A DNA stretch of 64,000 bases. Origin: Paramacrobiotus metropolitanus (taxonomy: Eukaryota; Tardigrada; Eutardigrada; Parachela; Macrobiotidae). Position 1 is the stretch's first letter. The number at the start of each line of letters is the position of its first letter. The notes beneath the pieces were generated by a model. It was not told the origin of the DNA. It saw only the letters and a list, made by a program, of their open reading frames with translations, and did no database searches. The translations under genes and the position numbers were made by a program. The stretch lies in assembly GCF_019649055.1 (NCBI RefSeq), contig NW_026570400.1:1-64000 (forward strand). The letters are read 5' to 3'. Below, piece by piece: positions 299-58,111 of this stretch.

Positions 299-1692
299 TT
301 AACCGTAAGGAAACAGCCATTGAAATAATTCCGCCGCCCACAAAAAAATTTCTGCTAGCAAAATGAGTTCGGAATGCTCCTGCATCAAATGCACAGCTGC
401 ACAGCTATGCAGAGCAATGTACAGCTGCAGCTGCGTACCGGGCGGGGCCATCCCGTCCGCCCCCGAGCGACCCATCCGCATCTGCCCGGCGTTCCCGGGA
501 AAAGGCACGCCGGCCTGGAGACCAACCTGGCCGGAGTGGACGCGCAGCTGCTCCCGGCGCTGCCGGCGTTGATCCTCCATAACCGTCTTGATTTTGTAGA
601 TCTTCTCGGCCAGATGCTCGTAGTATTCTTCGCGGGAGTTGGCCTGTTCGTACATGTTCGCCTCCACTTTGTGGGCGTAGGAGACGATGTTCGTCATGCG
701 TTTCTCAAGCGCCGCCCACCGGTCCTTGTACGGGAATATGGCCTCCACACTGACAATCACCAAGAAAAAAATTTGAAATGGGTTCTTTAAATAAATTTTT
801 GTATGCGAAAAAATCTAAGGGCCGAAAACGTCGGTACTTTTCCGTTCTGCAGATGCGGCGTACTTACATATCAATTTTAACGATAAACGCATATAAACTG
901 ATATCATGTATTGTTACATATACGTATCTACAAAAGATACACACTTATGCTACAGCTTTCTTGATTTCAAATTAAGCTGACACTGACGACAAGATTTTCG
1001 TTCACCATTTTGAACAAGAACGTCGCAATTAAAACGTACAGTTTTTCGATGAGATGCTTGCGTAAAGAATCCGTACTGGCCTGTTCGTCGCGGTCTACCA
1101 CCACCTGATGCCACTTCTTGACGGCCACCTGATGGGGCACGAACTGCGGATGATTGTCCAGCGGAGAGCTGGTCGCCCGCGGTGCCGAGCGCGCCGGCAC
1201 ACCTTCCGCCGACGGCGGAAGAACCTGGCCGTGAAGTTTCACGACCTCTTGCTGGCGCGTGCGCGGCTTTTCCCATCCGGCGCGGATCACTTGGCAGAAA
1301 GGCACAAGACATTGACCGTCATTGCACTGCTTGGCGTGGTAGCAGCACAGCGTGACCAGCGGCCGGCAGAGCGGACACTGCGTTCTGGGCTTATGTGTGC
1401 AGGTCTTGATGTGGGAGACGAGGCGCTTCATCTTGCCACAACGGGGCTCACTGCAGACGGCCTCACGGCAGTACCCGACGTGCAGCAGTGGCGGGAGGCT
1501 GCGTTCAGCGGCGGGCCAGTGGGCTGCCGGCGCCGTCGCAACTCCCTGCATCCGGGTGTCCTGTTCGACCGGAATCGACGCATTCGGCACGGGCAGAGGG
1601 CCGTCCCTGGCAATATCACCCGCGGTCGGTGAAGCGTCGTCCGCAGCACCAGTCGGGCAAGTGGAAGGCGAATGGGGAACAGAAGAATTCAT
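299..1692 (-). CDS. CBP/p300-derived protein, TAZ2 zinc finger fused to KIX domain
   Basis: Two exons on the minus strand, 1692-1040 and 749-299, joined at a GTACGT donor and a TTGTCAG acceptor; the splice restores the KIX reading (EKL|VEAIFP). About 367 aa. Residues 66-140 are a TAZ zinc finger of the TAZ2 type, with all three H-C-C-C zinc sites present (LLH..C..C..C, LVSH..C..C..C, YHAKQC..C..C). Residues about 193-275 are a KIX domain (KKWHQ...IEKLVEAIFP...MTNIVSYAHKVE...REEYYEHLAEKIYKI). In CBP/p300 KIX binds activators such as CREB and TAZ2 binds p53- and E1A-type activation domains; a nuclear adaptor role is inferred. In full-length CBP, KIX follows TAZ1, so TAZ2 before KIX is a rearranged order. 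The start was chosen to match the ATGAATTC start of the next paralogue. A possible donor (GTACGC) after the KIX helix means the gene may continue past the left edge. Confidence 0.85.
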
Positions 1693-2014
1693 TTCCTGGG
1701 GGCAGAGGAACTGGTACTTCGTTGGATTCGGGCTGAGATGGAAGCGGATCCTACCCAGTACAATTAACATTAACTAGCTATCAACACATCAAGATCGTTT
1801 GAACGCATTTTGTAAAACATACTGATTTAAGTTATAACTCCATACAAAATAACACAACATAAGAATAAATATTGTAATAGTGCTTGAATAAGAAATAGTA
1901 GGTAATATAAGATAAATAATAAATAAAAAATAGTGACATAATAGTGACAAATAATAGTGACATTAACTGAACACCGTTACAAGTGCCTTTAGTGGCTCAG
2001 TGTATAGTGGTACA

Positions 2015-2034
2015 GTACGATCAGCGCTACCGCC
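2015..2034 (-). promoter_or_regulatory. shared 5' leader motif, copy 1
   Basis: On the minus strand this reads GGCGGTAGCGCTGATCGTAC, 323 bases upstream of the TAZ2-KIX start codon. Nearly the same 20-mer lies upstream of the other two CBP-like genes. It probably belongs to a non-coding first exon or core promoter, since likely acceptor sites (TGTACTGGGTAG here, TGCATGCAG and GTCTGCAG in the others) follow before each ATG. Confidence 0.55.
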
Positions 2035-2469
2035 TCTGGGGTGCAACGTCCGAAGAGGAGCTTAGCAAGAAAAACGAATTTTTTTGGCTGCTTGAGCGAC
2101 GCAACTGATTGTGAGAAGCATGCAACACAGATCTTGGGAAAAAACGCTGATCAGGTAAATATGTGTGCTCCGACATGCACCCCTCCGCCTTCTTCAGTTC
2201 TAAACTAACCCTTAAAGAAATATGGAAATGCGAAACTAACAAAAACAGCGAAAATCCAAGAACATTAACATCTTTTTAATAACTCACTCTTTTACGGTCA
2301 TAGTAACACCAAGTGTGCATTAAATGTATCAATAATTAAAACAGTTTAATAAAAAGTGAGGAAGAAATATGTTCAGATGCACAGGCACACATTGCAAGAA
2401 CGGTTGCAGCCGTTGGGCCGTTGGACTACTCTACCTGGGACTTACCGTAATGTACTGCAATATTGCTGG

Positions 2470-3400
2470 ATTAGTCTGTATCTTCAGCTTTTTCACCGTC
2501 AACGTTGATCGTTTCCCCAGCTTTTCCGGATTAACAGTGGCGTACAAATCAATAGGGATGCGAGATTCTAAAAATAAAAATTTATTACCCTCGACTAAGC
2601 ACAACTCTTGTTGTTTATCCGTTTATCATTAATATCTTGGATCCTGGCGTTGAGTTCGATTTTTCAAAATTCGAACACATGCATGCAGAACGACGATGAT
2701 AGAGATGGGAATCGTCGAATCGGACAGGACAGGCACGCTGCAATCTGCATAGTGTACCGGTATCTATAGTGCACAGCGCACATGCGTACATACTCATACA
2801 CACCTGAACGTACACACATGTGCTTTCGTACGTACGGCGCTGGTGGAAGCCCATCCATCAATCACCGTTTTATATGACAACTAGCCAGTCACAGTCCTCA
2901 ACCGTGTAACCCATTACCATCCTGGGCGGATGGAAGAGTTACTAGAGTAGCCCGCATAACGTTAAAAATGGGCAGTACCACTACCTGATCTTCATCAGAT
3001 TCTCTCCATCGGATCCAAGCGGCGCTTGGATAGTTCCATAGTTCAAGCGCTCCATAGTTCCAACTTCCAAGCGCTTCGTGTCTCGTGCACTTTAAAACTT
3101 AGCCAAATTAACCTCAAAAGATGCAGAAAAATCAAAATATTTGCGCTACAAAACAAATAAGAATTGCAGTGAAGTGAGTGAACCACTAACTACTAACTAC
3201 TGAGCTGCAGCTACGTACAGTATGTACTATGCAGCTGTTTCTGTTATCTACTCGTTAGCGTAGAATCCGCGGTCAATGTTTATGTACAATACTTTATTAT
3301 AAATAATTTCCTGTTGGACTGTGTCGAGCGACAAAATCTAGACAAACTTCGGCGATGGTCGATGGCTTCGACGATTATTTTGTTGTCAATCCCATCAGTT
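2470..3400. repeat. left copy of duplicated intergenic segment
   Basis: Several blocks here recur in the same order at about 6140-7260: the TTTTCCGGAT...AAAATAAAAA block, the GGATCCTGGCGT/GGACCCTGGCGT block, and the block around 3240-3390 (CAATGTT...GACTGTGTCGAG...GATGGTC). I see no gene here. The segment is the spacer of the tandem CBP-like duplication. The following stretch to about 4550 has no gene I can support. Confidence 0.5.
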
Positions 3401-3861
3401 GTGCGAACGCATGCGCAACGCAAAGTACAGTTTAAGTACAGATATGATTCTTATATCTATACTGCTACAGCTAGAACTGATATCTTATACTGAAGTGGGC
3501 AAGATGATTCGTCAGGAAACAGGCGAGGTACGTGCAACGGAATACCTGCGCCAGCTAGAGGTTCAGCATCGAAGTCCAACGGGGAAACGCGGCATTCATC
3601 CTGGGAACGGCACCAGCCGGCTAATCAAATGTTCTCTGTAATTCGGCCGCCTGTTTCCGCTGTTTGTTAGATTTGTAATGTGATGTTTCTTTTGTGGCTG
3701 TGAGATTATCTTTGTATTCGCTCATCAGTAAATACTGCTGTGTACTGTGCATAAGTTTCACAAGTAAACTTGAATAAAGGGCTTAATGCAAAAGTGCACA
3801 AGAGTATTGTTGTGTATACAAATCATCTGGCTATAGAATGTCATAAAACAGAAAAAAATGT

Positions 3862-3965
3862 TTAGGAGTGCGGGAAAGTGAAAGTTTCCTGCATGTATTG
3901 AACTATTGATGTACACGAATATAGATATAGTACCATGTACCGGGCCACTTCCCTTAATTCTTGTA
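3862..3965 (+). repeat. dispersed repeat with ATGTACCGGGCCA core, copy 1
   Basis: The core ATGTACCGGGCCA (3935-3947) is preceded by an AAAGTTTCCTG...GTACACGAAT stretch. Related copies lie at about 25277, 35640, 38625 and 38772 in the same orientation. No coding content is convincing; short open frames over the copies are translations of the repeat. Confidence 0.5.
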
Positions 3966-4550
3966 CAACGCAAATACTTATTTTAATCGTTCTTGAAAAC
4001 AACAATTCGATCAAATACAAACTAAAGCGCCATTCCATTATTTCCACGCTTAATATTGGAACTTAAGTATACTTAAGTCCGTAAGCAACTGTAGATTAAA
4101 GGTGCGCTATCTCCAGAAAATTTCCATAGAAAAGGCCGGAAATGGAATTACAGTGCATCTAATGTACAGCCTGCGTTACTTATTCACATATAGATCCTTA
4201 CAAATTATCTACATTATTAAATACATAAATGGGTGAAAATGAGACCATGGATAATGATCAAAAAGGTACTAAACCCTTATTGAACAGATCAAGGTGAAAG
4301 AGCATGCCGTCGATGGGAAACACGGAGGTATGCTTGATATGGATAGTTAGCTATAGTAACTTATACCACTACGAATACCGGCCATCAACTCCCGGAACTT
4401 TATTTCCCATTCCTGGATAATCTGTCTGGACGAGGCGTAATACGGGGCTACAAATGCAGGGCATATGAAAATCTAAATTATAAACAGCATTTAGAACGGC
4501 ACTACGGATGTACCTGGGCCGTGGTTATTGCCTTATCGTGAAACACGGTT

Positions 4551-5444
4551 TTATGCGCCGCCTCCACTCCCTTCGCCATCCTCCATCCTTGCCTTCTTCA
4601 CGAGGTCAGACGTCAGCTCCTGGTTCCCCATCATCATATTGCGGATGCGCAGCCGCAATTCCGGCGGAGAATTCCTCGGCGGGTCGCCGCCCAACCCCGG
4701 TCCCGCGGGCGCCGGCATCCCTGCGGGCGGCGGGTACAATTGGGCATATCGCGCCTGCTGCTGGCGCTGGATCTCCTGCTGTTTGCGCTGCAGTTTCCAT
4801 TTGGCGCGGATCTGCGGGCAGAAGGGCACCAGACATCTGCTGTCGTTGCACGACTTGGCATGGTAGCAGCACAACTGGATCAGCTGCTTGCAGATGGGGC
4901 ACTGGCCGCTGGATTTGCGTTTGCAGTTCTTGGTATGCGAGAGGACGCGCTTCATCTTCTGACAGCTGGGCAGCTGGCAGGTAAGGTCACGGCATTGGCT
5001 GCCGTGCACGAGAGACTGGATACAGCGCTGGATGGAGGCCAGACGGTCTTCCTGCGACACCGGCGGCTTAGCACGCGGCGGCTCCGGGCTCATATCCGGG
5101 CGCTTTTTCCCCTTCCCCGACTCGGAGTTCTCGGTATTCTCGGTATCCTGCAAGTCCAGCTGCTCCATTCCCTTGATGAACGCGTCCAGTTCGCTGTTCC
5201 ACAGGTCACCACTGCCAGACGGCAGGCCCACCACACCGCCCAGCATCCCGTCATCCTTTTCGACCGGATGCGATGGATTCGGATGGCCGTTCATGGAAGT
5301 GTCACGCTCGGGCGGTTGAGCGTTGCCCACACCGCCCGGGAAGCGGTCGACGGCCAGCAGAGGATTCCCATCCAGCGTCTGCGTGTCGGGAGCAGTCCCG
5401 GAAGTCTGGGATACAGCGTGTGGATGGGAGTAGAGGGAATTCAT
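4551..5444 (-). CDS. CBP/p300-derived protein, TAZ2 zinc finger plus NCBD-like helix
   Basis: Single coding exon, 297 aa, ATG at 5444. Residues 134-218 are a clear TAZ2 domain (SIQRCIQSLVHG, CQKMKRVLSHTKNC, CPICKQL, LCCYHAKSCNDSRCLVPFC) with all twelve zinc ligands. A Gln/Arg-rich stretch follows, then a Pro/Gly linker. Residues 261-286 (LRLRIRNMMMGNQELTSDL...) resemble the helix of the CBP NCBD/IBiD domain, which docks p160 co-activators and IRF3 in CBP. Residues 81-100 hold a short motif, FIKGMEQLDLQD, shared with the third paralogue. There is no bromodomain, acetyltransferase or ZZ domain, whereas CBP/p300 is over 2000 residues. A nuclear adaptor or competitor of full-length CBP is inferred. 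Neighbours on both sides are same-strand paralogues. Confidence 0.88.
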   Translation of the reverse strand: MNSLYSHPHAVSQTSGTAPDTQTLDGNPLLAVDRFPGGVGNAQPPERDTSMNGHPNPSHPVEKDDGMLGGVVGLPSGSGDLWNSELDAFIKGMEQLDLQDTENTENSESGKGKKRPDMSPEPPRAKPPVSQEDRLASIQRCIQSLVHGSQCRDLTCQLPSCQKMKRVLSHTKNCKRKSSGQCPICKQLIQLCCYHAKSCNDSRCLVPFCPQIRAKWKLQRKQQEIQRQQQARYAQLYPPPAGMPAPAGPGLGGDPPRNSPPELRLRIRNMMMGNQELTSDLVKKARMEDGEGSGGGA

Positions 5445-5588
5445 TTTCCGGGAGTAGAGAAATCAGTTTATCGTTGGACTCTCCAACTGGGATCCTGCAT
5501 GCAAGTAGAAGCAATAATTATAATTAATTTTGAAGGTAAATCACCAGTGTTCTCCTGTCGCAAGCGTCATTATTATTGGTAGTATTTG

Positions 5589-5608
5589 GTACAATTAGCG
5601 CTACCGCC
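5589..5608 (-). promoter_or_regulatory. shared 5' leader motif, copy 2
   Basis: The minus strand reads GGCGGTAGCGCTAATTGTAC, one small block different from copies 1 and 3. It lies 145 bases upstream of the TAZ2-NCBD start codon, with a likely acceptor (TTGCATGCAG) between it and the ATG. Confidence 0.55.
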
Positions 5609-6139
5609 TATGGGGTGGCGAACGTAGAGGAGATTTACTGCTTCGGTAAGATTTGTAGGAAAAGTCAAGATTTTCCATTTTCTTAGCGATGCGAGTCACG
5701 ACTGAAGAGCCAGGAGCATATCTTATCATCTTGGAAAAAAACGCTAAATAGGTGAATGAATGCTCGGTATGCTCACAACATTCAGCAAGATCTAATAAAA
5801 CGCAAAGGCACACAGGCAGCTAAAGCAGGCACCTGCCTACACTCACAGCCTCACAGTCACAGTCACCGTTAACAATACCTCAGATATTCGAAAAGAAAAG
5901 CAGTGAAAATCCGAAAAGCGCCCTAACGTTAACTAACGGTGAGCTGTATGGATAATTAACAATTAACTAGTAACCTGTACGCGGATAAATGAATCTGAAA
6001 CAGTTCATTGCCTGGTGAAACAAGCGACGCTCAAAAACGATTTACGGAATACCTGTAGGCTGTAGCCAGTGCCCGTCAATACAGATATTGCGATAAGTAG
6101 GCGCCTTTCTTGGTCACGGCAAAATCCACGTAAATAATT

Positions 6140-7260
6140 TCCCCAGCTTGATAGCAGGCTTTTCCGGATGGACAATGGAATACTCACCAGTGAGGCAAGA
6201 TCCCAAAAATAAAAACTATCCGATGTTGGGTACTAATCTGACTGGGCTTTCGCAGTTTACCAGTTTAATCATGGACCCTGGCGTAAGCCCGATACGAGTG
6301 GTGTTCGAAAATCGAAATTCGAAGCATAGGAAATTAAAGAATGCAGTACTGTAGGTAATGGAAATCGTACGTAGCGAGATGAACAGGTTGCATCATGTTT
6401 CATAGGTGGAACTGGGAAAAACTTGACGCCCTTCGATGATGTAAGTATCATGTAACCAATTGCGACAGCGTGTGCCACCCTAGGGGGCTGGCAGAGCAGC
6501 CGTAATTTGCATGACGTAACGAAGGAGGGCGTCATGAAATTTTTTCCAGTTCCACCAATTCAGTTTCATTTTTCCAATGGCAATGGAGCTCGCGCTCGTG
6601 CAATAATGTTGATGTGGTTAACAACTCTAAAGATCAAAGAACTACAAAAACATGTAGAATGCGATCGCATTCGCCAGCTTCCCGCACTTCGAACGGGTTG
6701 ATTATGTAAGTACTCGTACTTTTAAATGCTCGTGCCTCGGGATTGTGGATTAAGCCATCCGATCGAATTGCCAAAAAGCTGCAGAAAAATCTGCATGATT
6801 TTCGATAACAACAATTAAAAATGTCGGTCGACCGAAGTATAACTAGGAAAGTGCACCGCTGATGGCTTGCATAAAAGACCGAAGCTGGAAACCAAATTTA
6901 ATAAACTGTTTTACAAACACATTTTTATATTTAAAAAATGTTTTTTGGTGTGTTCTTCCATATTTTATTTAAAATTGTTAATGCGTGACCGACATGACCG
7001 ACGTGACCGACAAAATTCCTGTTTTCTTTAACATAGAGGACCTTCGCTTCGGTAGATTAAGTTGTTACCCGCTAGTCGCTACGTATTTCTGCTTTCTGGC
7101 ATGGAATCTACTGTCAATGTTATTTTACATACTATGATGTTGGGCCGTGTCGCAACAAACACTGCAGCTCCATTACGCGTTCGAGTTCAGCGATGCGATG
7201 GTCAAGGGTTGAAGGGACTCAAAACGCCTTGACGATGATCCTCTCGTCATTCGCAACAAA
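6140..7260. repeat. right copy of duplicated intergenic segment
   Basis: This matches the spacer at about 2470-3400 in the same order, with many small indels. It includes the TTTTCCGGAT, GGACCCTGGCGT and GGGCCGTGTCGC blocks. I see no gene in 5610-7820. Confidence 0.5.
6658..6845 (+). repeat. dispersed ~190-bp repeat, plus-strand copy
   Basis: It runs from AATGCGATCGCATTC to GTCGGTCGACCGAAGTATAA. A closely similar copy lies in inverse orientation at 28760-28945. Shared blocks include AGCTTCCCGCACTTCGAACG and TCTGCATGATTTTCGATA. No open frame persists in both copies. Confidence 0.65.
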
Positions 7261-7823
7261 TACTAGTAGTTTAATGCAGTGCAATGCAAAGTGTTTGTAC
7301 CAAAGGTCATCCTAATTTCTAGTGTACATGTAAAAAATGTAAGTAAGTACATTGCACTATCGATAAAATTTTTATGCCGGTATATGTATATATGCCGGTT
7401 ATAAAAAATTCGTGACAGTTACATGTGTCGGCACTCGGCATCGCAACTGTATTAATTAACATTATCAATGCATAATGAGGTTATAAATAATAAGTTTTGC
7501 GATTACATAAATTTTACAGAAACATATACTTCACGTAAACCTGCAGCCTACTATTTTTTAATACCAATGATATCAACATGCCACCCATATACGATCGCTC
7601 GTTTGCAGCAGTTCGATACAAATTAGCTCGTGAAAATATCATAAGAATATACTGTAGCCTGCTGATAGCGCAACTACAGTATTAGTCTATAGATATCTAT
7701 ATTAGCATTACGGATACAATATGCAACGCCGGCGTGTACAACGTATACAATATGCAGCCAATGTAGAACATGATACAAATGTGTGTTAGATAGTATTATT
7801 GGCACATGGGCAGTATACATGGG

Positions 7824-8324
7824 CTACAATGGTGCCGGCCCTCCCCTCCGGGCGCGGTCCTCCGTCCGGGCCATCTTGAGGAAGCCGGTGATGAGCTCGG
7901 GATTGCTCTGCATGAGACTGCGCACCCGCTGCTGCTGGTCCGGACTGGGCGGGCTCTGCAGCGCCTCCACCAGCTGCTGGTACGGCACCAGCTTCGTCGA
8001 CGGCAGAGCAGGCCTCCGGAGCATCGCTTCGAAATCTGCCAGCGCCTGTCCGGGCGCTTGCGGCTGAACCGGCCCGTAGCCTTGCCCTTGGACATTCTGC
8101 TGCGCACTGCTGGCGCCGCCCGGGACCTGGCCGCCGTGCCCCAGGCTGGTCGGATGCGGACCAGCATGGCCACCCTCTCCGGCATCCTGCAAGTCCAGCT
8201 GCTCCATCCTCTTGATACAGGCGTCCTGCGCCCTGTTCCATTGGTCAGCATTGCCGGACGGCACCTCCGCCGCTCCCGGAATCGGGGTGCCTCTGGGGGC
8301 TTCTTCTTTCATCGGGGATGACAT
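7824..8324 (-). CDS. CBP/p300-derived small protein, NCBD-like domain only
   Basis: Single exon, 166 aa, ATG at 8324. Residues 116-153 (QLVEALQSPPSPDQQQRV, then SLMQSNPELITGFLKMAR) match the CBP NCBD/IBiD pattern of a helix, an SPSSP-like turn, QQQ, then a second helix with SNPQLMAAFIKQR. Residues 29-47 (WNRAQDACIKRMEQLDLQD) align with residues 82-100 of the TAZ2-NCBD paralogue, which supports common origin. There is no TAZ, KIX or catalytic domain. The NCBD of CBP is a molten-globule domain that folds on binding p160 ACTR-type partners, so a small partner-binding protein is inferred. The rest is Gly/Pro/Gln-rich and probably disordered. Confidence 0.75.
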   Translation of the reverse strand: MSSPMKEEAPRGTPIPGAAEVPSGNADQWNRAQDACIKRMEQLDLQDAGEGGHAGPHPTSLGHGGQVPGGASSAQQNVQGQGYGPVQPQAPGQALADFEAMLRRPALPSTKLVPYQQLVEALQSPPSPDQQQRVRSLMQSNPELITGFLKMARTEDRARRGGPAPL

Positions 8325-8454
8325 GTTCGGCTCCAGCGCTGCCTTGTTTGCGGAAAATTAATCTTTTAGTAGCAAGGAATCTGACCGATGTTGGAAGTCC
8401 CCGTCGCGATCCTGCAGACGGACAAAAGACAATTTATATTCGCAGTAACAACTG

Positions 8455-8474
8455 GTACGATCAGCGCTACCGCC
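8455..8474 (-). promoter_or_regulatory. shared 5' leader motif, copy 3
   Basis: The minus strand reads GGCGGTAGCGCTGATCGTAC, identical to copy 1, 131 bases upstream of the NCBD-only start codon. A GTCTGCAG acceptor lies between. Confidence 0.55.
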
Positions 8475-9227
8475 TAGAGGAGTGGTAAGTGAAGGGCAGT
8501 TTGGTAAGAAATAGTACTATGGCGAAGAGCATCACACAGTTCACACTGTCGTAAAGGGTCGAAAAGAAACGGAAAAAACTGTGATCCAGTGATTATCTCA
8601 ATGAATGTCACTGCTATAAGCTGCCAGCATTACAGAATTTACAGTACAATGTTGCGTGGCTTTTGTCGGTGCCAGTGCAATAATGGTGGGCGGTTACGCT
8701 ATTATCAGGCCGAAATTCCTTGGTTAAGCAGTGACGGCACCATGTACCAAACAAAACTCTGCAGCAATGAGAACACAATCTCATAAAATCTTTGAACAGA
8801 GCCTGAGCGACTTTCCGGTGCAATATATTCAACAAAAAAATATATAATGCCTCGTATTATCACACTAAATTCCAGAAATACACCCTTAGATTCCAGAAAT
8901 TCCCGAAATATAGACTCACCCTTATAAGCTTTCACGATTAATTAATCGATTCCGTCGTACTTCGATTAGCAACAACTACCCCAATAATAAGGAATAAAAA
9001 GGCAAACGCGGACACCCTACTCAAAAATTAAAAGTTTATTATAAATTAGTACGTAGAAGTACGAGTATTGCAGTTATAAAAGTATGCAACCCCGTTGTTG
9101 AGTATAATCCAGAATTAAATACGCACCCGATGCTTCTATAAAGCAAGACATTTATGTAAAACTAAAGCCAAAGGTCAAACTTAATTATGACCACAACAGA
9201 ACATTTCTCATTTTCGTTATAAACATA

Positions 9228-9405: not shown

Positions 9406-11893
9406 ATGCCGGCCACTGTCATATCTTTCATCCTGCTACCTTTGGCGGTACTCCCATTCAACACAGCCCAGTCCAGTAAGTAGGACCTGCACATGACCTC
9501 TGCAATAGCGCCCACAACGGTAGATATCTTCGGACTGTATAGTCACTGTACCATAATTTAATGTATTTAAATGCTTCTCGCTTTTAATCGGTATCAGCCA
9601 GTACACATTTCAACATCGCGGCGCGGGTTTTTAACTAATTAAGTGTTAATTTAATGATTTTAGTTTGGCTGTAATTAAGGGTAATCCAACGGCGATAATG
9701 TGCGTTATATTTTAACGCAGGCCGGTTGGATGTTTTTGATGCTTAAATTTTAACCTGGGAGTAGTGTGTCCGCACGTATGGGAGTAGTGTGTATCTGCAC
9801 GTGAGGTAGTACTTACTAGAAAACTAATCGAATATTAGAAATGTTAATTTTGAAATTAAAAACAATTCGGTAATTAAGCATATACTACATGCAACATAAT
9901 TAACGATAAGCATATACAGTAGTACATGCTTAATTAGTATAAGCATATAGTACATGCTTAATTAGCAGCCAGCGTACAATTTTTTTTAAAACACGAATAA
10001 AAAAATGTCTAACTTATATTTATCAACAGAGCGACACAATTGTTTTTGGATAACTGCGGGGAGTTGCTGCATGTCATTCAAATTTTTGGAAATTAAATCA
10101 ACCGCCTAGTCGCGCGATGATCATAATAACTGTTATAACATATTGCGGTGTGACCTATATGTTATTTTAGAGCTTAACGTCGTTGCAGCTGTTATGAAAG
10201 TAAATAAATTGCAGACGCGGGCAACCCTGTAAATGCCGGGGCCTTCGACCCCAAGAACGAAACAACATGGCCCTTCTGCGCATCCTGCTACAACGAGCAC
10301 GATACCGACTTCGCGTCCCATACCAACGAGAACTGCCTGTACGTGACGCTGGATGGATCGACGGTTGGGAAGTGTCGCAGCAAATACTGTGAAGCCAATC
10401 TCCGGCGTTGGGCAAAGCGCTGGCGAGATGTCCCGGTTGTCGTCAATCACCTCGGTTGAGTATAACTGTACTTGCCGAACTAGTATAGTGTGGAGTGGGC
10501 AGTACCTTTACAAAGGGCCACCTTTTTTGGGTTGTTTATCAGTGCATATTAATGGCATTTCATGCGGAATAAGATGATATATAACGCGGCGCGCGTATAT
10601 TACATATGTTAAACTGCAAGTTCTTAATTATTAATTAACGTTATTGAATAAAAGTTCAGTTATTATTATGTTTTGCAGCTGTTACTTGATTATATACAAG
10701 TCAGCTAAATTAGTTAGGTTGTAATTAGTAAAGTTATACGAGTAATAAAGGTCAGTCAATTATTTTTTTTTATATTTATATTTTATTTTTTATTACATAA
10801 TTATTCAATAAAAGTCGAGAAAAGATGTAGTTATAATTTATTTTTCTACAATAAAATTAAATATAGCTTTGGTCAAAAGTTGTGAACACCTTATGGTTAT
10901 AGTTCTTTCTTCTCTAATAGTATGTAATAAAAATTATTGAATCACTACACACCTTTGCATCTTCTATTGCTCCATGATTGAACGAAGTTAAATAATTCTA
11001 CTTCGTTGATGTTGTTCGACAGTCAACGCGATAAACCGAGGATGTGCCGATAAAACGGCCTTTAACGAAGAACAGCTGGACTTGCTGTGGACGCTGCGGC
11101 CTACGCCCTCCTCGTCGTGGGTCTGTGTGCAGATGCAGGACCATGCGGCGCCCAACGTCAACAATTACTACAACGTCCAGTGCGTCTGCCGGGGCAAGAT
11201 GTGCAACGCCGAGATGACGCAGTGGCAACTGCTGGCGCTGCCACGAGTATCGCGCGAAACCTTAGCCCGCGCCACCACCACCACCACCACTACCGTCGCT
11301 ACCACCACGACCCGTCGGCCGGTGACCACCTCCACGAGGTCGCCCTGGTACACCACCGAGGTCAGTTCGGCCACCTTACCAGGGGGCATTTTTTGGTTTG
11401 CAACTAATTAAAGAGACGTGCAGTCTTTAGTTATGTACAGAGTGTATACGAACCCGGTGAATAGTAATATTTGCGTAGAGGTACAACGAAATTTAATAAG
11501 ATAGTCTCGATACCACGACCCGCAAACCCCCTCACTGTTTAATTAAGCGTTACATACATTTGGCAAGCCTGGTGCTACGTTGAATAAATATTATTAATAA
11601 TCACAAACATAATTATTGTATAATCGAAAAATCTATCGATCGAATTTTTCTGTAATAGCAGTCTATTGCAGAATTAGATTGATCGTTGTGAGAATTGTAG
11701 TGTAGGGGTGATTTTCTAAGCGCCAATTCATCGCGCTTTTTATAAGCTACCTGCTACGTCACCTATACGAGTACCTTAATTACGCGAGAAATTATTCCCA
11801 GTACTCATAATAACTACGGCAATCGGTCATATTGAAAAATTGCGGTGTTTGTTGCTGCAGGACGATTCCGATCCGAATGTTTGGATGTTTTAG
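9406..11893 (+). CDS. secreted ten-cysteine Ly6/uPAR-like protein, unit A
   Basis: Four exons: 9406-9475, 10215-10454, 11023-11360 and 11861-11893, with GTAAGT, GTTGAG and GTCAGT donors and CAG acceptors. The spliced frame is open for 226 aa. Exon 1 is a signal peptide (MPATVISFILLPLAVLPFNT). Exon 2 has C-x-x-C, then three more cysteines ending KCRSKYCEANLRRW. Exon 3 adds five, ending VQCVCRGKMCNAEM, the C-x-C-x4-C-N signature of three-finger domains. A Thr-rich stalk (ATTTTTTT...RRPVTTSTRSPWYTTE) and the tail DDSDPNVWMF follow. The tail stops at TAG where unit D reads CAG and adds ten residues. I see no GPI-type hydrophobic C-terminus, so secretion is likely. Partner unknown. An activin-receptor-like ectodomain is an alternative reading of the cysteine pattern. 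Confidence 0.7.
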
Positions 11894-12519: not shown

Positions 12520-15086
12520 TTGCTTCCCTGTCGTAATTTTGATTCTTCCACTGTTGACGCTACTCGCATTCAACGCAGCCAAAACCGGTAACTGAAAAAA
12601 ACCGGTAACCTTGCAAGTGACCTTTATAAAGATATTGTAATTACATTGCAAACGGTGACTACAATATAAAATTAAATGTTACTATGACTTGAAAGGATCG
12701 ATCAAAGCGATTAAATACGAGATATTAGAAATATACATAACTGGAATAGAAAATAATTATTAGAAATTGAAATGCTTAATTCACTAATCACATCTAAGCA
12801 GAGCATACTGGATGGTGAGTTGCGCTCATCTTACTATTTTTTTAAAATTCATATATAAATAACAATTTTATTTTACGAGTTTACGAGTTTCTAGATATTG
12901 TATCTAGATATGCGGCTGAACACCAGCTAAACTTCAATGCAAAGAAAAGCGCTCATGTACGATTCACCAGAAAGCGTATAAAAGTGCCAGATAGTCTATA
13001 CACGTTAAACAGTGAACACATCCCCGTATCCGACAGTGCGAAGTATCTAGGTATCTACCTGGACCGACATCTAAACTGGAAACGTAACAGCGAAAATCTA
13101 GCTACCCGCATGAAAAAACGTATCCGTTACCTAAACGCACTGTTTCCATATCAAAACAGTGCGGCTCGAACGAAGTTGTACGATTCCCTTGTCAAACCGA
13201 TAGCCGATTATGGCAGTTCCGTAGCTTTCTGTCAACATAAGCTAGTGATTGATCAGTTAGAAGACTGCCAGTACCGATTCTTAAAAAGTATCAGATTCGG
13301 ACCTTGCAAGTTTGAGTATGCCGAAACGTTAAAAAAAGCGGGTTACAAGTCCCTGTTATTTTGTCGTATCCGAAAATCTCTGCTCCTGACGTACAAGATG
13401 GTTTTCCGTCTTTTACCTTATGGAGAGAAATTTTTCAAACTTCGGGAAAAACCTGGTACTGCCGCCGTTTGTATTGCAGGCAGAACACGTCAGATACCGT
13501 CCCTTGATGAACATCCCTACGCAGTGGAACCCGTGGACACCTGCGCCTCGGACGGACGGAAGTTCATCAGCGAGCGGAGCTTTGCCTTTCTAATGGCGCA
13601 CTTGTGGAATGAGATCAGACTGCCCCAGGAATCACACAACCGCATCAACAGTTTTGATTCTTGCCTGGATGCGGTTAAGTTGGCGGATTTAAAATGGACT
13701 AAGCGTTTCCTTCAACTTCATGTTGATCATTACTGTTTACTGTGAAACTGCATGTTGTCTAGATTTGTGATGTTTTATATGTAAGGCTTTCGCTAATGCG
13801 CTAGCCTTTTCTCCCATGTTAGTCTATGACCTCGTGCAGGACATCCCTGATTGTTGTAGACATTAAGCTCATTAAACAAACAAACAAACAAACATCGTCG
13901 ATTGCTATCATTATCGTGGTTATTATCATTGTTATCATTACTTACGGGAATCAAAAGGGATTAACGTTACAGTCTAAATTAATAAAAGTCTTAAATACAT
14001 TTTAGAATATGAAAGTCTAAATAAATTTCAGCGGCGGGAAAATACCAGGTAATATTTCCGGATCCCGGGGCCGTATTTGATCCCAAGAACGCAACGACAT
14101 GGTCCGTTTGCGCATACTGCCACCGCGATAACGATACCGACTTCGCCACCATTGTCGATGAAAACTGTATTTATTCGAGTGTTATTGGGCTGTGCCGCAG
14201 TAAATACTGTCAAGTCCATCTCCGAAGATGGCAGAGGCCTCGCGGTTACCCCGTTGCCGTCCATCGCACCGGTTGAGTACACGCAGTTCCGTGTAAAGTG
14301 TGCATTGTGCACTACAAAAAGGTCCCTTTTTTGGATACGAACATACCAGAAAAATTCTTGCCGATTTAAATTGCACATATCCTCTTTTACTTTTTTAATG
14401 TACATAATACATTTAGAAAAAAGCAATTAACTTCACAAAGCAGTAATAGTTAAGTTAAATTATTCTATCAGCGCAGTTTGCACTAATTAAATTTTCTGTA
14501 ACTAATAATAAATTTACTGAATTTTTGCAAAAGCTATTTTTGACAATATTTATCACCCAATGAAGAAATTATTAATAAAGTATGTCTATATTAAAAGTAT
14601 GTTTATAATAAAAGAAAAGCCGAGTAATTAAGTTACATGATTCGGTATTATTTCTCCATCAATTTTTACAAAAGCTATTTTTTTCTACAACTCGATCACT
14701 GACCAAATGAAAATAAACTGCTTTTCGCTGATCGACAGTTGACTGGATAAGCCGAGGTTGTGGCGACAGAAACGCCTTCACCGAAGAGGAACTGGATGGA
14801 CTGTTGGCACTGCGGGCCACGCCCACCGCGTCCTGGGTCTGTGCGGAGGTCCAGGACTATGCGGCGCCCAATGTCAACGAGTACTATATTATCTCCCGGG
14901 AGCCGACTTCAGTGTCCAGTGCATCTGCCGGGGCGGCAGGACGTGCAATGCCGGCATGACACAAGGGGAACTACGGTACTGACGCTGCGGCGGCTACCAT
15001 ACGGCACACGTTTCACCCGCGCCACCACTACGATCCCAACGCCGCTGACCCACGCCACGGGGGCGCCGGCATGGTACACCACGGAG
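12520..15086 (+). pseudogene. Ly6/uPAR-like unit B, broken copy
   Basis: Relic exons lie at 12520-12587 (signal peptide), 14032-14271 and 14739-15086. The start codon is TTG where A and C have ATG, and a missing base next to it shifts the signal-peptide frame. Exon 2 is exactly 240 bases, as in A, and fully open (TWSVCAYCHRDNDTDF...GLCRSKYCQVHLRRW). Exon 3 begins in frame (WISRGCGDRNAFTEEELDGL) but shifts frame before VQCICRGGRTCNAGM and again before the Thr-rich stalk and WYTTE end. I find no tail exon before unit C. A LINE fragment sits in intron 1. A non-coding or conversion-donor role remains possible. Confidence 0.75.
12890..13892 (+). mobile_element. 5'-truncated LINE (non-LTR retrotransposon), reverse transcriptase C-terminal part
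   Basis: The open frame runs from about 12890 to 13745. It shows the post-catalytic RT region of jockey/CR1-type LINEs: AAEHQLNFNAKKSAHVRFTR, then SAKYLGIYLDRHLNWKRN, then a C-terminal helical region (LYDSLVKPIADYGSSV). The catalytic YADD part is absent, as expected for 5' truncation. A short CAAA repeat near 13871-13892 looks like the 3' tail. The frame is undisturbed for over 250 codons, which suggests fairly recent insertion into intron 1 of Ly6 unit B. Confidence 0.85.
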
Positions 15087-15794: not shown

Positions 15795-18474
15795 ATGCCG
15801 GCCACTGTCCTACTTTTCATCCTGCCACTTTTGCCGCTACTTCCATACAGTGCAGCCCAAGCAGCCTGTAAGTAAAACCTCCAAGTGACCTTTACATGGA
15901 CGTACCCTAACATCCGGTTAAAGATCCGTAAAATTATTTGCGGAATAAATTGACATTAGTCGATAATTTATTTAACAACAAATGGCTGCACGCTTGCACT
16001 ATCCGAGCTCTCGATTCACGTTATGTAGATCCAGTCAACAATACATAGTTTTCTTTGTTAAATAAGTCGGTTTAATTTTCTTGATGGCGTTGATGGCGCG
16101 GAAGCGTATGATGTAATTTGTTACAGGGTACGCACAACCTGTACAGGTGACGGTCGGTACGGGTGAGTTCGACCTGAAGAACGCGTCAACATGGATGTGG
16201 TGTCACCATTGTGCCGACGAACTGGATGAAGTAACCGGTGCCCAAACCAAACCCTTCTGTACAGAGAACGAGTGGGATTTCGATACGGCCATGAAACAGT
16301 GCCCCAGCAAGTACTGCCAAGTCAGTATGCGGCGTTTCTCCAAACGAGTCAGCGACTATCCCACCGTCATCAACCATAGGGGTACGTATATTCCTCGTAC
16401 AAAGGTCATCGTTCTACTAGTTGCGATGATCAGTGTAATACGAGCGCGTCAGCTAAAGCATCGAATTTTTATGACGTATACCGTACAAGATAATATACCC
16501 GACAGCCATATATTTACTATAAGTATATAAGCAATTTACTATACTTCTACTACAAGCCTGGTGAGTGCTTTCTTGCGCAAACGTATACGTACAGCGAGAA
16601 GTACAGATCTATGGGTTACGCAAGGATCCATACCACAGCCCGCCACGCCATACTCCCTGTGCGTTACGAGCTTTACGCATGGCTGATGCACGTCAAATAT
16701 TGACAAACTTCATAGAAACATAATAAAACCGAAGAATTTATGAATCAAATTTATTTATCATGATAATTCGTGGTAAAATTAAATGTATCTTTGTAGTAAT
16801 TGTACATAGTGCAGTGACTGCTATCTACTGCTAAGCTGTAAATTTGCTCAAGAAATTTATCATCGGACTAAGGGCATGTACTCTGTATATACCCAGTATG
16901 GGTAACATAAAAATAATTCATAAAATTATACCAACAGTTCAGTAGTTACTCTGCAGTTAATTCTTAAAATTGCTAATTTCTTTAGCATCAAAATTATAAT
17001 GCAGCTGTAGGCTTATTTGCGGAATAATTAAATTAATGTAGAATAATTATTGTATACTGATATTTATCTGGAAAGGTCAAGCATATCATTCACGTTATGT
17101 AGATCCAGTCAACAATACATAGTTTTCTTTGTTAAATAAGTCGGTTTAATTTTCTTGATGGCGTTGATGGCGCGGAAGCGTATGATGTAATTTGTTACAG
17201 GGTACGCACAACCTGTACAGGTGACGGTCGGTACGGGTGAGTTCGACCTGAAGAACGCGTCAACATGGATGTGGTGTCACCATTGTGCCGACGAACTGGA
17301 TGAAGTAACCGGTGCCCAAACCAAACCCTTCTGTACAGAGAACGAGTGGGATTTCGATACGGCCATGAAACAGTGCCCCAGCAAGTACTGCCAAGTCAGT
17401 ATGCGGCGTTTCTCCAAACGAGTCAGCGACTATCCCACCGTCATCAACCATAGGGGTACGTATATTCCTCGTACAAAGGTCATCGTTCTACTAGTTGCGA
17501 TGATCAGTGTAATACGAGCGCGTCAGCTAAAGCATCGAATTTTTATGACGTATACCGTACAAGATAATATACCCGACAGCCATATATTTACTATAAGTAT
17601 ATAAGCAATTTACTATACTTCTACTACAAGCCTGGTGAGTGCTTTCTTGCGCAAACGTATACGTACAGCGAGAAGTACAGATCTATGGGTTACGCAAGGA
17701 TCCATACCACAGCCCGCCACGCCATACTCCCTGTGCGTTACGAGCTTTACGCATGGCTGATGCACGTCAAATATTGACAAACTTCATAGAAACATAATAA
17801 AACCGAAGAATTTATGAATCAAATTTATTTATCATGATAATTCGTGGTAAAATTAAATGTATCTTTGTAGTAATTGTACATAGTGCAGTGACTGCTATCT
17901 ACTGCTAAGCTGTAAATTTGCTCAAGAAATTTATCATCGGACTAAGGGCATGTACTCTGTATATACCCAGTATGGGTAACATAAAAATAATTCATAAAAT
18001 TATACCAACAGTTCAGTAGTTACTCTGCAGTTAATTCTTAAAATTGCTAATTTCTTTAGCATCAAAATTATAATGCAGCTGTAGGCTTATTTGTATACAT
18101 TAATTTTAATGTAGAATAATTTTGTATACTGCATAGTTTATCTGGGAAAGGTCAATCATATACACCACAATTGTACAGCGTTTCGCACGATCCGCTCCTG
18201 CCCACAGAACCGTTCCACGATGTATGGCCTAACCGAGGAGGAGCGTGACGCCTTGTGGGACCGCCGAACGGGTGTAGCCCCGTGGGTGTGCCGGAACGAC
18301 CAGGACTGGGGTGAACCTAATCCCAATGAGTACGCCGATTTTTTCTGCATCTGCAAGGGACAGCACTGCAACTGGTGGGGCAGCAAGGTGCGCGATCTGG
18401 TCATACTGCCACGGATAAAAACGAGTGTTCAGTTGATCACCACAAACAGACGGCCGTTTATCCGTAACTCGTAA
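15795..18474 (+). CDS. secreted Ly6/uPAR-like protein, unit C, with duplicated second exon
   Basis: Exon 1 (15795-15867) is a signal peptide, MPATVLLFILPLLPLLPYSA. Exon 2 is present twice with identical sequence, 16127-16381 and 17201-17455 (STWMWCHHCADELDEV...PFCTENEW...QCPSKYCQVSMRRF). Exon 3 (18179-18474) gives SCPQNRSTMYGLTEEE...PWVCRNDQDW...FFCICKGQHCNWW and ends at TAA after RPFIRNS, without the Thr stalk or acidic tail of units A and D. The last codons overlap a GTAAGT donor-like site. Exon 2 is symmetric (phase 1-1), so including one or both copies keeps the frame: one gives a single ten-cysteine domain, both give an extended cysteine module. Which form is made cannot be read from DNA. 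Confidence 0.65.
16014..17019 (+). repeat. exact ~1,006-bp tandem repeat, copy 1
   Basis: It matches 17088-18093 at an offset of 1,074 bases, with no difference that I found by eye. It covers exon 2 of Ly6 unit C and its flanking introns. The ~70-base linkers after each copy (17020-17087 and after 18093) are clearly related but diverged. Confidence 0.85.
17088..18093 (+). repeat. exact ~1,006-bp tandem repeat, copy 2
   Basis: Second copy of the block at 16014-17019, including the duplicated cysteine-rich exon at 17201-17455. Confidence 0.85.
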
Positions 18475-44656: not shown

Positions 44657-45590
44657 CTATAACAAGAAAATTTCCTCTAACTTCTCCTGATCCGGTATTG
44701 TGCCCATAACGCACATAGCGTTTCCTCTTTGAATCTGTATGGAGATCCGCTGCCGGAAAAATTCTTTCGCGCGTGGTTGCCCGGTAGTGGTCGCGATGAG
44801 CTGTCCGGTTTTATCGACCAGCATCTTAGCTCCGTCGCCCAAAGGTCCGTATGTTTCAAAGGCAGCGGCAACAAAATTGTACCTTGGCTGAAGCCACGCA
44901 TGTTTTGCGAGCTTTTTTGCTTCGGCTAGTTCCGCTGCGGCACCGACATTGACGGCTGTACGGTCGAGATATGAAGTTGCCAGAGTGTCCACACAGGTTA
45001 CGTCTATTGCGAGTGGTTTACCACGTTCCCAGGGGACAAGCGTAACTACATCCGGTCTTTTGTTACCTACTAAGGCCAATCCTTTCGGCTCCACTCTGGC
45101 AGGGAAACCACCCGTCGTTAACGCGCGAGCGAACTCCTTGCTGATGCCATCATGTCTGGGTAGTCGTCCGGCTGATCGTTTGCACCGCAGTCCATGTCTC
45201 CCGAACTCGTCTACCCATTCGCCGCATTTACATTCATGGGGAGTTACAATAGAGCACCTAAACGTAGAGCGACGCTGGTCTGAAAATCGATATTTTCCAG
45301 CAGATTACCTAGGCAAGCAGCCGGCAATGCGTGAATCCAATAACCCGATTCTGGTGTTGACACCGTCAAGTGTGCGACTTCTGGCAGAGACACGGAGTGC
45401 TGAAAGGTCAGAAAGTGCACGCAAGGACGCAGGAGTGTCCCAGGCTTTTTGGATGCCGTGGAGGGGTTCAGCTGGCACATCATTCAAGCCGGTAAGCAAC
45501 TTCCAAGCCAAAGTTGCGGAAGTTGTGTCGGTCGGTGGTAGAAAAGGGCATAATTTGGAGATAAGCGGGCGCACAGAGGAAGCCGATGCC
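44657..45590 (-). mobile_element. non-LTR retrotransposon 3' fragment A (endonuclease-like C-terminus)
   Basis: Minus-strand pieces read PLHGIQKAWDTPA, then SGYWIHALPAACLG...VALRLGALL, then PHECKCGEWVDEFGRHGLRC and a 145-aa frame with KRPDVVTLVPW...LAIDVTCVDTLATSYLD...EAKKLAKH...FFRQRISIQIQRGNAM. This is the common retrotransposon tail with a zinc-knuckle-like C-x-C...H..C and a PD...DVT pair, as in restriction-like endonucleases of some non-LTR elements. Frame changes near 45245 and 45300 show decay. The reverse transcriptase itself is absent. Confidence 0.75.
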
Positions 45591-50284: not shown

Positions 50285-50671
50285 TCAAAGAAGATGAAGA
50301 ATTTGTCCCATAGCATTACCACGCATAATCTCCAAACTTAAACGCTGAAACAAAAAACAAGTAGAGCGACTCTCCCCCGTCCTTAAAAACAACTTTTTAC
50401 CAATCTCCTTTAACGTAACAATGCCGGTCTCACACCAAGTGCCAAAAGTCTCGCATGCGAAGGGAACAAAATAACAGCGATCAGTAAGTGACTTGTATTT
50501 TCTTATCTTCTCCCGGCATGCAAGTTCAGCGGCGGCGCCAGCACACTTTGAGGTCGCGTCGATGTATGAATCAGCCATCGTGTCTCTGCAAGTAACGTCC
50601 CAAACTAAAGGCTGTCCACGATACCATTTCCAGCGCGTGGCTCCATCCGGACGCTTTCCGTTTTCGCGCAA
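50285..50671 (-). mobile_element. non-LTR retrotransposon 3' fragment B
   Basis: 128-aa frame KRPDGATRWKWYRGQPLVWD, VTCRDTMADSYIDATSKCAG, FVPFACETFGTW...TCFLFQRLSLEIMRGNAM. Same C-terminal endonuclease-like module as fragment A but from a different subfamily. The PD and DVT motifs are intact. Its downstream flank (TTTATTTCTCAATATGTACA, from about 50240) recurs at about 52561, probably marking the 3' end of the element. Confidence 0.75.
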
Positions 50672-51018
50672 AAAGCCAACAGGCGATATTTTTTTTTGCG
50701 ATATTGTTGTTACACTCTGTTTCCTTCTCTATTGTTATTACACTCTGAAGCCTAGAGGGGGCAACCGCTCCGTTGCAAGGGCAATAAACTGCACTTTGAT
50801 AGAACTTTTACAGACTTCGTACCCGGTACTACCGTATACGGTACACGGTGATACGGCCAGTTTGGTTATTGTTACAAGCTCAACCTCGGCCTCCGGCCTC
50901 GGTTGAGAATTTTTAGTACTGATGAAAGAAATGTGATAGTTTTATAAAGATAAAAAAAAGATTTTATAAGATTTAGGAAACGAAATTTAACTGATCGGAA
51001 AGCGGTTTGTTTTGGATT

Positions 51019-57246: not shown

Positions 57247-58111
57247 GGCTGCGTGCACGGGTAAACACGGGTGTTAGCTATTTGCACGGGTGAACTTTTT
57301 GGGTCCGCACGGGTGTTGGCTGTGGGCACGGAGTTTGGGAACGGGTGTTGGCTGGGAGCACGGGATTCCTGCACGAGCGCTGGCTGCATGCACGGGTAAT
57401 TTATTTAATTTTAAATTGTTTAAATAAAATTTTTTTACTAATAATTCAACGTATTCTATTCTTCAACGTATTCTATTATTCAACAAATTAAGTTTTGCTA
57501 TTGTGATAGCGTGTTTCTTTCTTTATTACCATAACTGTGCGATGATTATTAATAAAAGAATGCTTCTATTCTTTTATTTCGATTTTTTTAAATAATTACT
57601 ATAGAAATCTGTCACAAAATCCATACTTTTTACCAAAAACACTGGTAAATACTAAGTAGTACCCGGTTCCATTCGAAACCACAGTAGTTTCGTAGACCGT
57701 ACAATAAAACGGCCTCCATAAGTTTACTGAAACATGCCGTTTTAAAGGCGACGGCGTGCTGTACTCCGACGATGTCCTAAGCGCATCAAAAACTTGCTTG
57801 CCGCAAAACCGGGTACTGCAAATTTTGTCGTATATCATAACTACTGTGTTACCAGCCATTAGTGCTTGCTAATACAGTGCTGTGTATTACTGTACTTGAA
57901 ACAACTTGAAAGTCACAGTAAGAAGACTCGAATATCAAATCAGCCAACACTCAAACGTAAAAAAAATGTGAGAAACCGTGCACGCAGCCAACATCCCTGT
58001 AGACACCCGTGCACACAGTCAACACCAGTGTCCAAACTCCGTGCACGCAGCCAACACCCGTGCAGACACCCGTGCACGCAGCCAACACCCGTGTTTTCCC
58101 GTGCACGCAGC
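57247..58111. mobile_element. foldback-like element 2, sub-repeated inverted arms
   Basis: The left arm 57247-57397 repeats CACGGGTGTTGGCTG-type units; the right arm 57975-58111 carries the inverse (GTGCACGCAGCCAACACCCG). The outer ends GGCTGCGTGCACGGG and CCCGTGCACGCAGC match. The core holds an 86-codon minus-strand frame at 57599-57859 with no recognised domain. It begins about 12 bases after foldback-like element 1. Confidence 0.75.

Follow-up and report, generated by a model that had tools for sequence, protein, structure and literature searches.

Partial copies of CBP keep docking domains without the acetyltransferase in the tardigrade Paramacrobiotus metropolitanus and may compete with the full-length protein

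Introduction

CBP is generally regarded as a limiting factor for which many activators contend. What, then, would an animal do with genes that encode its docking domains and little else? The question is raised by the beginning of contig NW_026570400.1 (here C180) of the tardigrade Paramacrobiotus metropolitanus, whose first 64 kb, counted from the contig's base 1 and with a GC content of 42.6%, we call the window. Three neighboring minus-strand genes at window positions 299–8475 encode TAZ2 and KIX [367 amino acids (aa)], TAZ2 and a partial NCBD (297 aa), and NCBD (166 aa); we number them 1 to 3 and refer to them and to similar copies elsewhere in the genome as mini-genes. An original prediction had read the three as a tandem array of dissected CBP/p300 genes, of a kind not known to have been described, with modules that appeared to be under selection. 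Here, we ask what the modules are, where they came from, whether selection preserves them, and what their products might do.

Results

Docking Domains of CBP/p300 in the Window

The modules are those of CBP/p300. Pfam profiles matched KIX in the frame 299–814 (E = 1.1e-18, 67.7 bits, cut-off 27) and zf-TAZ in the frame 967–1773 (E = 1.1e-10, 42.3 bits, cut-off 25), both in gene 1; zf-TAZ in the frame 4551–5462 of gene 2 (E = 1.8e-12, 48 bits, cut-off 25); and Creb_binding, the NCBD, in the frame 7824–8357 of gene 3 (E = 4.6e-7, 30.9 bits, cut-off 26.6). Other families listed for window frames (among them Med15_N, KIX_2, and PAH) all scored below their cut-offs. By their best matches in the Protein Data Bank, both window TAZ domains are of the TAZ2 and not the TAZ1 type of CBP/p300; the KIX (gene 1) and the NCBD (gene 3) of these proteins were matched there as well. 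No Pfam match to the KAT11 acetyltransferase (HAT) domain was found in the six window frames scanned, and none to a bromodomain, PHD/RING, or ZZ domain in the same frames at E up to 1 (no genome-wide search was made for the latter three).

The original prediction of TAZ2 with KIX, TAZ2 with an NCBD-like part, and an NCBD-like part only, therefore, stands for the CBP domains of genes 1 and 3, and genes 2 and 3 are indeed without an acetyltransferase or bromodomain match. It needs amending for gene 2, where the NCBD amounts to helices 2–3, lies below Pfam detection, and yet beats its shuffled versions (0/2000), and for both genes 2 and 3 in that they also retain one helix of the HAT-domain end. 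Gene 1 has lost this helix, and no NCBD was found in it; no TAZ2 was found in gene 3.

All 12 TAZ2 zinc ligands, at positions assigned by what we take to be the TAZ2 pattern, are present in four of four TAZ2-bearing mini-genes, namely genes 1 and 2, as predicted, and two further copies (L002p and L003, described below). In gene 1, L002p, and L003, all 12 were retained, and the remaining TAZ2 is 41–46% identical to that of CBP. The KIX helices of gene 1 are likewise intact, as had been claimed, and are encoded by two exons whose GT–AG intron is placed as in the genome's own CBP. Using face residues and human numbering that we presume to be correct, we counted nine positions on the pKID/Myb face of KIX, of which 8 are kept in gene 1, 7 in L002p, 6 in L003, and 9 in a broken copy on contig C76; of eight positions on the MLL face, these copies keep 6, 6, 8, and 5, respectively.

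A Single HAT-Bearing CBP and a Family of Mini-Genes

Matches to TPS in the genome lie on three contigs; three TPS-TPP genes are reported for Paramacrobiotus sp. TYO (PMC8277472), the strain that a 2024 study of P. metropolitanus also used (PMC11191345). An exact SL1 22-mer had no match in the genome, which makes a rhabditid nematode an unlikely source. Profile searches of the genome (169.80 Mb in 533 contigs, labeled C57, C76, C104, C180, and so on) gave seven matches to zf-TAZ (eight candidates scored), five to KIX (six scored), and two to NCBD (four scored). The HAT profile matched two pieces of one gene (two scored), at C104:721–723 kb only; in one of the pieces, the match runs through a TAA and probably enters an intron. 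By domain content, this gene, on the minus strand of C104, is a full-length CBP with TAZ1, KIX, bromodomain, HAT, ZZ end, TAZ2, and NCBD. Its bromodomain was recognized in the reading frame and not by Pfam, and its exons were only partly joined. The search for a full-length CBP that had been proposed with the original prediction thus returned one gene, which holds the only HAT match found.

The mini-gene models were drawn from sequence alone. L002p (C104:735,202–733,297, 520 aa) lies ∼4 kb from the first recognized CBP frame, and L003 (C180:160,537–164,139, 489 aa) shares its contig with the window copies, which sit near the contig end; both encode a HAT end, TAZ2, KIX, and NCBD remnants. Together with genes 1–3, this makes five copies with open frames (166–520 aa). 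The copy on C76 (7.5–9 kb) is without TAZ2, and its exon 1 is disrupted by an in-frame TAG as well as by a frameshift. On C57, at ∼53.4–54.0 kb (L004:4185–4460 on the minus strand plus the next exon), lies a two-exon locus that holds TAZ1 only, has splice-like ends, and reaches a stop shortly afterwards. Read from the alignment, it retains the cysteines and ligand histidines of CBP TAZ1, and omega (the ratio of nonsynonymous to synonymous rates) was 0.17 in a two-sequence comparison with CBP; no start or first exon was found at this locus. A query with the leader and HAT end of L003 gave six matches from six candidates, five mini-genes and CBP's own HAT end, with gene 1 absent. The tandem array, therefore, exists as three neighbors but is not the whole family, of which L002p, L003, the C76 copy, and the C57 locus lie elsewhere.

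The loci occur near contig ends (C104:718–735 kb of 753; C180:0.3–8.5 and 160–164 kb of 184; C76:7.5–9 kb of 680), and CBP and the mini-genes are placed as if a single physical cluster had been split by the assembly. Two 1.2-kb direct repeats, 98% identical, were seen at L003:1–1196 and 4213–5418; the second lies inside the KIX intron of L003 and stretches it to 2.1 kb. A reverse-transcriptase-like frame was also seen upstream of the TAZ1-only locus on C57.

Derivation from the Genome's Own CBP

The mini-genes derive from the CBP of the same genome. Their linkers preceding KIX match those of this CBP, and CBP and four of four KIX-bearing copies share the position of the KIX intron and its GT–AG ends. 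In L003, the stretch that separates TAZ2 from KIX corresponds to NCBD helix 1, and the stretch that follows KIX corresponds to helices 2–3 (each 0/2000 shuffles); the corresponding pieces flanking KIX in L002p are weaker (25/2000 and 11/2000 shuffles). With helix 1 before KIX and helices 2–3 after it, a genomic KIX segment, therefore, seems to have been inserted into the NCBD. Stretches of 5′ and 3′ flank are common to several mini-genes, and the 3′ flank of L003 holds CBP scraps of 125 bp (78% identity) and 93 bp (73%). Both these and the CBP scrap in the 3′ flank of gene 2 trace to the second TAZ1 exon and the sequence immediately following it, which is what a tandem duplication of CBP would leave.

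From these features, we infer an order of events. The family would have begun as short genes produced by partial duplication of the animal's own CBP, with an ancestral mini-gene in which a new leader preceded the joined HAT-domain end, TAZ2, and NCBD. On one branch, a genomic KIX segment with its intron would have landed inside the NCBD, and the copies would afterwards have shed different modules. Gene conversion from CBP was considered for the TAZ2 of gene 2 and is not needed, as gene 2 may have branched off before the KIX insertion. For the NCBD of gene 3, conversion from CBP is likely, on few sites.

Selection on the Modules

We estimated omega with our own codon model, from paralogues only (without CBP) unless stated, and give chi-square P values uncorrected for the number of tests. 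Among L002p, L003, and gene 1, omega was 0.43 for TAZ2 (P = 0.0025) and 0.42 for KIX (P = 0.0011); adding gene 2 to the TAZ2 set gave 0.34 (P = 1e-6), and adding the broken C76 copy to the KIX set gave 0.31 (P = 3e-8). The HAT end of L002p, L003, and genes 2 and 3 had an omega of 0.20 (P = 5e-5), the lowest of the parts tested among the mini-genes, and the NCBD remnants of gene 2, L002p, and L003 had 0.31 (P = 0.022). The leader gave 0.71–0.96, depending on the copies used, and was never distinguishable from 1: 0.96 for L002p, L003, C76, and gene 2 (P = 0.85), 0.88 for the same set without gene 2 (P = 0.61), 0.75 for the open copies L002p, L003, and genes 1 and 2 (P = 0.17), 0.83 for L002p, L003, and gene 1 (P = 0.50), and 0.71 for L002p, L003, and gene 2 (P = 0.16). 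Omega was 0.58 in the tail after KIX (P = 0.20). The point estimates of omega are lower for the modules than for the leader, which may itself not be neutral.

On single branches, omega fell significantly below 1 for the TAZ2 (0.14, P = 0.0004) and HAT end (0.13, P = 0.023) of gene 2, the HAT end (0.07, P = 0.001) and KIX (0.30, P = 0.037) of L002p, and the KIX of gene 1 (0.38, P = 0.031). In 4000 runs of simulated neutral drift at 0.2 substitutions per site, the stop-free fraction was 0.0015, 0.0065, and 0.065 for genes 1, 2, and 3.

Other results weigh against modules held by selection for present use. The TAZ2–KIX linker, outside the modules, also had a reduced omega (0.56, P = 0.03), and without the broken copy the leader lies at 0.71–0.83, which narrows its contrast with the modules. 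The TAZ2 branches of gene 1 (0.46, P = 0.24), L003 (0.37, P = 0.11), and L002p (0.30, P = 0.07) were not significant, nor were the KIX branch of L003 (0.49, P = 0.22) and the HAT-end branch of gene 3 (0.53, P = 0.51); the HAT-end branch of L003 was not significant either. In L002p and L003, a glycine breaks NCBD helix 3. The KIX of the broken C76 copy, too, has an omega of 0.18 (P = 8e-5) and a complete pKID/Myb face and is paired with CBP by the best KIX tree (by 2.6 log-likelihood units). Constraint alone is, therefore, no proof of present function, and a like pattern could arise through gene conversion from CBP; at C76, the low omega and the pairing with CBP point to recent decay, conversion, or an assembly error. 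Finally, the NCBD of gene 3 differs from that of CBP by 3 changes in 23 codons, too few for a selection test. Its synonymous divergence (dS) from CBP is 0.14, compared with 0.47 in the HAT end (∼18 synonymous sites), and support for gene 3 is weak. The prediction that the modules are under selection has support in the paralogues taken together, with omega below 1, but the TAZ2 branch of gene 1 on its own is not significant, and in gene 3 sites are too few.

Layout and Other Features of the Window

Coordinates of the three genes are collected in Table 1. A 21-bp element lies 130–322 bp upstream of the ATG of each and is near-identical among them, with two variable positions only. A genome search at up to two mismatches, with a pattern derived from these sites, found only the three in the window. 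Its possible roles are those of a promoter element and of a 5′ splice donor. Used as a DNA query against the genome, the upstream flank of gene 2 matched itself only, and AlphaFold2 on gene 2 alone gave a mean pLDDT (predicted local distance difference test) of 48.1.

Table 1. Positions of mini-gene features in the 64-kb window
Feature	Window position	Strand	Content and basis
Gene 1, exon 1	1040..1692	-	ATG at 1692 (MNSSVPHSP...), leader, TAZ2, linker, KIX helix 1; 3′ end AAACT/GTACGT (slash, exon end)
Gene 1, exon 2	299..749	-	KIX helices 2-3 and new C-terminal tail; stop at 299
Gene 1, TAZ2	1294..1500	-	12/12 zinc ligands
Gene 1, 21-bp upstream element (AGGCGGTAGCGCTGATCGTAC)	2015..2035	-	Element search
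Gene 2	4551..5444	-	One exon, 297 aa: leader, HAT-end fragment, TAZ2, remnant of NCBD helices 2-3
Gene 2, HAT-end fragment (VGLPSGSGDLWNSELDAFIKGMEQLDLQDTEN)	5136..5231	-	Codon comparison and genome search
Gene 2, TAZ2	4818..5033	-	12/12 zinc ligands; 84% amino-acid identity to TAZ2 of the genome's CBP
Gene 2, remnant of NCBD helices 2-3, without helix 1	4581..4664	-	Shuffle test, 0/2000; no Pfam match
Gene 2, 21-bp upstream element	5589..5609	-	Element search
Gene 2, 48 bp of 3′ flank	4407..4454	-	81% identical to region of CBP second TAZ1 exon; remnant of duplicated CBP
Gene 3	7824..8324	-	166 aa in one exon; carries the HAT-end fragment plus a complete NCBD
Gene 3, HAT-end fragment region	8151..8276	-	Codon comparison and genome search
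Gene 3, NCBD match	7872..8102	-	Overlapping 132 bp, 7853-7984, 94.7% identical to CBP NCBD exon
Gene 3, 21-bp upstream element	8455..8475	-	Element search

Elsewhere in the window, short cysteine-rich frames at 11010–11408, 16117–16527, 17191–17601, and 18115–18471 look like secreted Ly-6/three-finger proteins; the 16117 and 17191 frames translate identically, and the two scanned with Pfam (11010 and 16117) gave no match. An RH1 domain (E = 3.6e-16) is encoded at 58022–58411 on the minus strand by what is presumably a gene for a JIP3/4-like scaffold. Frames at 12846–13742, 44660–45304, and 50288–50728 resemble pieces of non-long terminal repeat retroelements, the first two without a Pfam match at 0.01.

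Discussion

The mini-genes share with CBP/p300 (KAT3) the TAZ2 and KIX modules, the NCBD (by Pfam in gene 3, as a remnant by shuffle test in gene 2), the zinc ligands, and, compared with this genome's CBP, the position of the KIX intron. They differ in that the window frames have no HAT, bromodomain, RING/PHD, or ZZ match and in that the module order is altered in gene 1. TAZ or KIX without a HAT also occurs in plant BTB-TAZ proteins and in the KIX proteins of Mediator (Med15), but these are ancient families with other partner domains and not local pieces of a resident CBP.

The suggestion that no such array had been described is not supported, as Caenorhabditis elegans provides a precedent in cbp-2 and cbp-3. 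There, cbp-2 is reported to consist of the first zinc finger and KIX and cbp-3 of the first zinc finger only; both are HAT-less partial duplicates of cbp-1, lie with it within 160 kb, and were formerly called pseudogenes, and RNA interference against each had effects on several reporter promoters (PMC10320766). We read this first zinc finger as TAZ1. Like the worm genes, the mini-genes are partial copies of a resident CBP, possibly clustered with it, that carry docking domains without a HAT. Unlike them, the window genes hold TAZ2, KIX, and NCBD (a TAZ1-only locus lies on C57); their relatives in the genome include copies with KIX inside NCBD (clearly in L003, weakly in L002p), and the copies are more numerous. 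As the animals belong to different phyla, the two cases are most likely independent. Pristionchus pacificus and C. elegans are reported to have 12 and 7 CBP/P300-subfamily genes, respectively (PMC11075575), so nematode copies may extend beyond cbp-2 and cbp-3. A tardigrade CBP has served as the root of a CBP tree (PMC12897451). The titles and abstract openings listed by the literature searches, which left subscription journals mostly outside, mention no HAT-less CBP paralogues beyond C. elegans. Docking-only duplicates of CBP are already known in kind, and the tardigrade set represents another lineage and other domains.

What might the mini-genes do? We favor, with confidence evenly poised, the reading that they are independently evolved, docking-only competitors of CBP. 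The genes would be transcribed and translated, and their products would bind the partner activation domains of CBP, namely the ligands of TAZ2, KIX, and NCBD. Binding without delivering an acetyltransferase would chiefly amount to competition with CBP. The mini-genes would, thereby, set the effective dose of CBP at chosen activators, with a ligand range that differs from copy to copy. Selection seems to have preserved their modules, so competition with CBP is possible, as it may be for cbp-2 and cbp-3 in the worm; that the products do bind the ligands of CBP and compete with the full-length protein is a proposition, judged from the sequence, to which we give an even chance.

The strongest rival is that the mini-genes are decaying partial duplicates, pseudogenes-to-be without a consequential product, which resemble CBP through recency and gene conversion. 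We consider this unlikely but to be taken seriously. The broken C76 copy, with its apparently constrained KIX, fits such decay, as do the piecemeal loss of modules among the copies, the CBP scraps from around TAZ1 in the flanks of gene 2 and L003, and the NCBD of gene 3, which is much nearer to CBP (94.7% DNA identity over 132 bp) than the HAT end of the same gene, as conversion would leave it. The worm genes, too, once carried the pseudogene label (PMC10320766). Decay is harder to square with five open frames, with KIX splice sites kept wherever KIX is present, and with module omega below that of the leader; moreover, neutral survival of the open frames is improbable in the simulations, gene 3 excepted.

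The mini-genes could instead be adaptors. The HAT-end fragment (in L003, GDLWNSALDAFIKGMQQLDLQD) has the look of an acidic, amphipathic activation motif, presumably akin to the DLW motif of p53. It might recruit CBP or fold onto the TAZ2 or KIX of its own protein. We regard this as improbable: the fragment has the lowest omega of the tested mini-gene parts and residues common to the mini-genes that CBP does not have, but it comprises only 32 codons and has been lost from gene 1.

A bolder version, which we hold to be just as doubtful, would combine the competitor and adaptor readings. CBP would have been taken apart, with every docking domain (TAZ1, KIX, TAZ2, and NCBD) now in HAT-free, reshuffled products, and the HAT helix turned into a conserved, activation-like motif that gates the mini-genes' products or bridges activators to the single full CBP; together, these would form a tunable set of competitors that surrounds a single acetyltransferase.

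Least credible, and largely refuted, is that the genes are exons of a single long CBP transcript or a product of faulty assembly: the array begins at a contig end, and other mini-gene loci lie near contig ends too, but gene 1 has TAZ2 before KIX, the reverse of CBP, a separate ATG, stop, and upstream element belong to each gene, as expected of the separate genes first proposed, and the HAT-bearing CBP is on another contig, C104. Nor are the mini-genes alleles, because the dS between them (0.38–0.83 in TAZ2 and KIX) is too large.

Genes that encode only the docking modules of CBP would be built-in competitors for a contested protein. A second phylum beside C. elegans, with its cbp-2 and cbp-3, would suggest that evolution can repeatedly discard the enzyme and retain the docking domains. 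The distinct module sets of the tardigrade genes (TAZ2 with KIX, TAZ2 with a partial NCBD, and NCBD) would make domain-specific competition testable within one animal.

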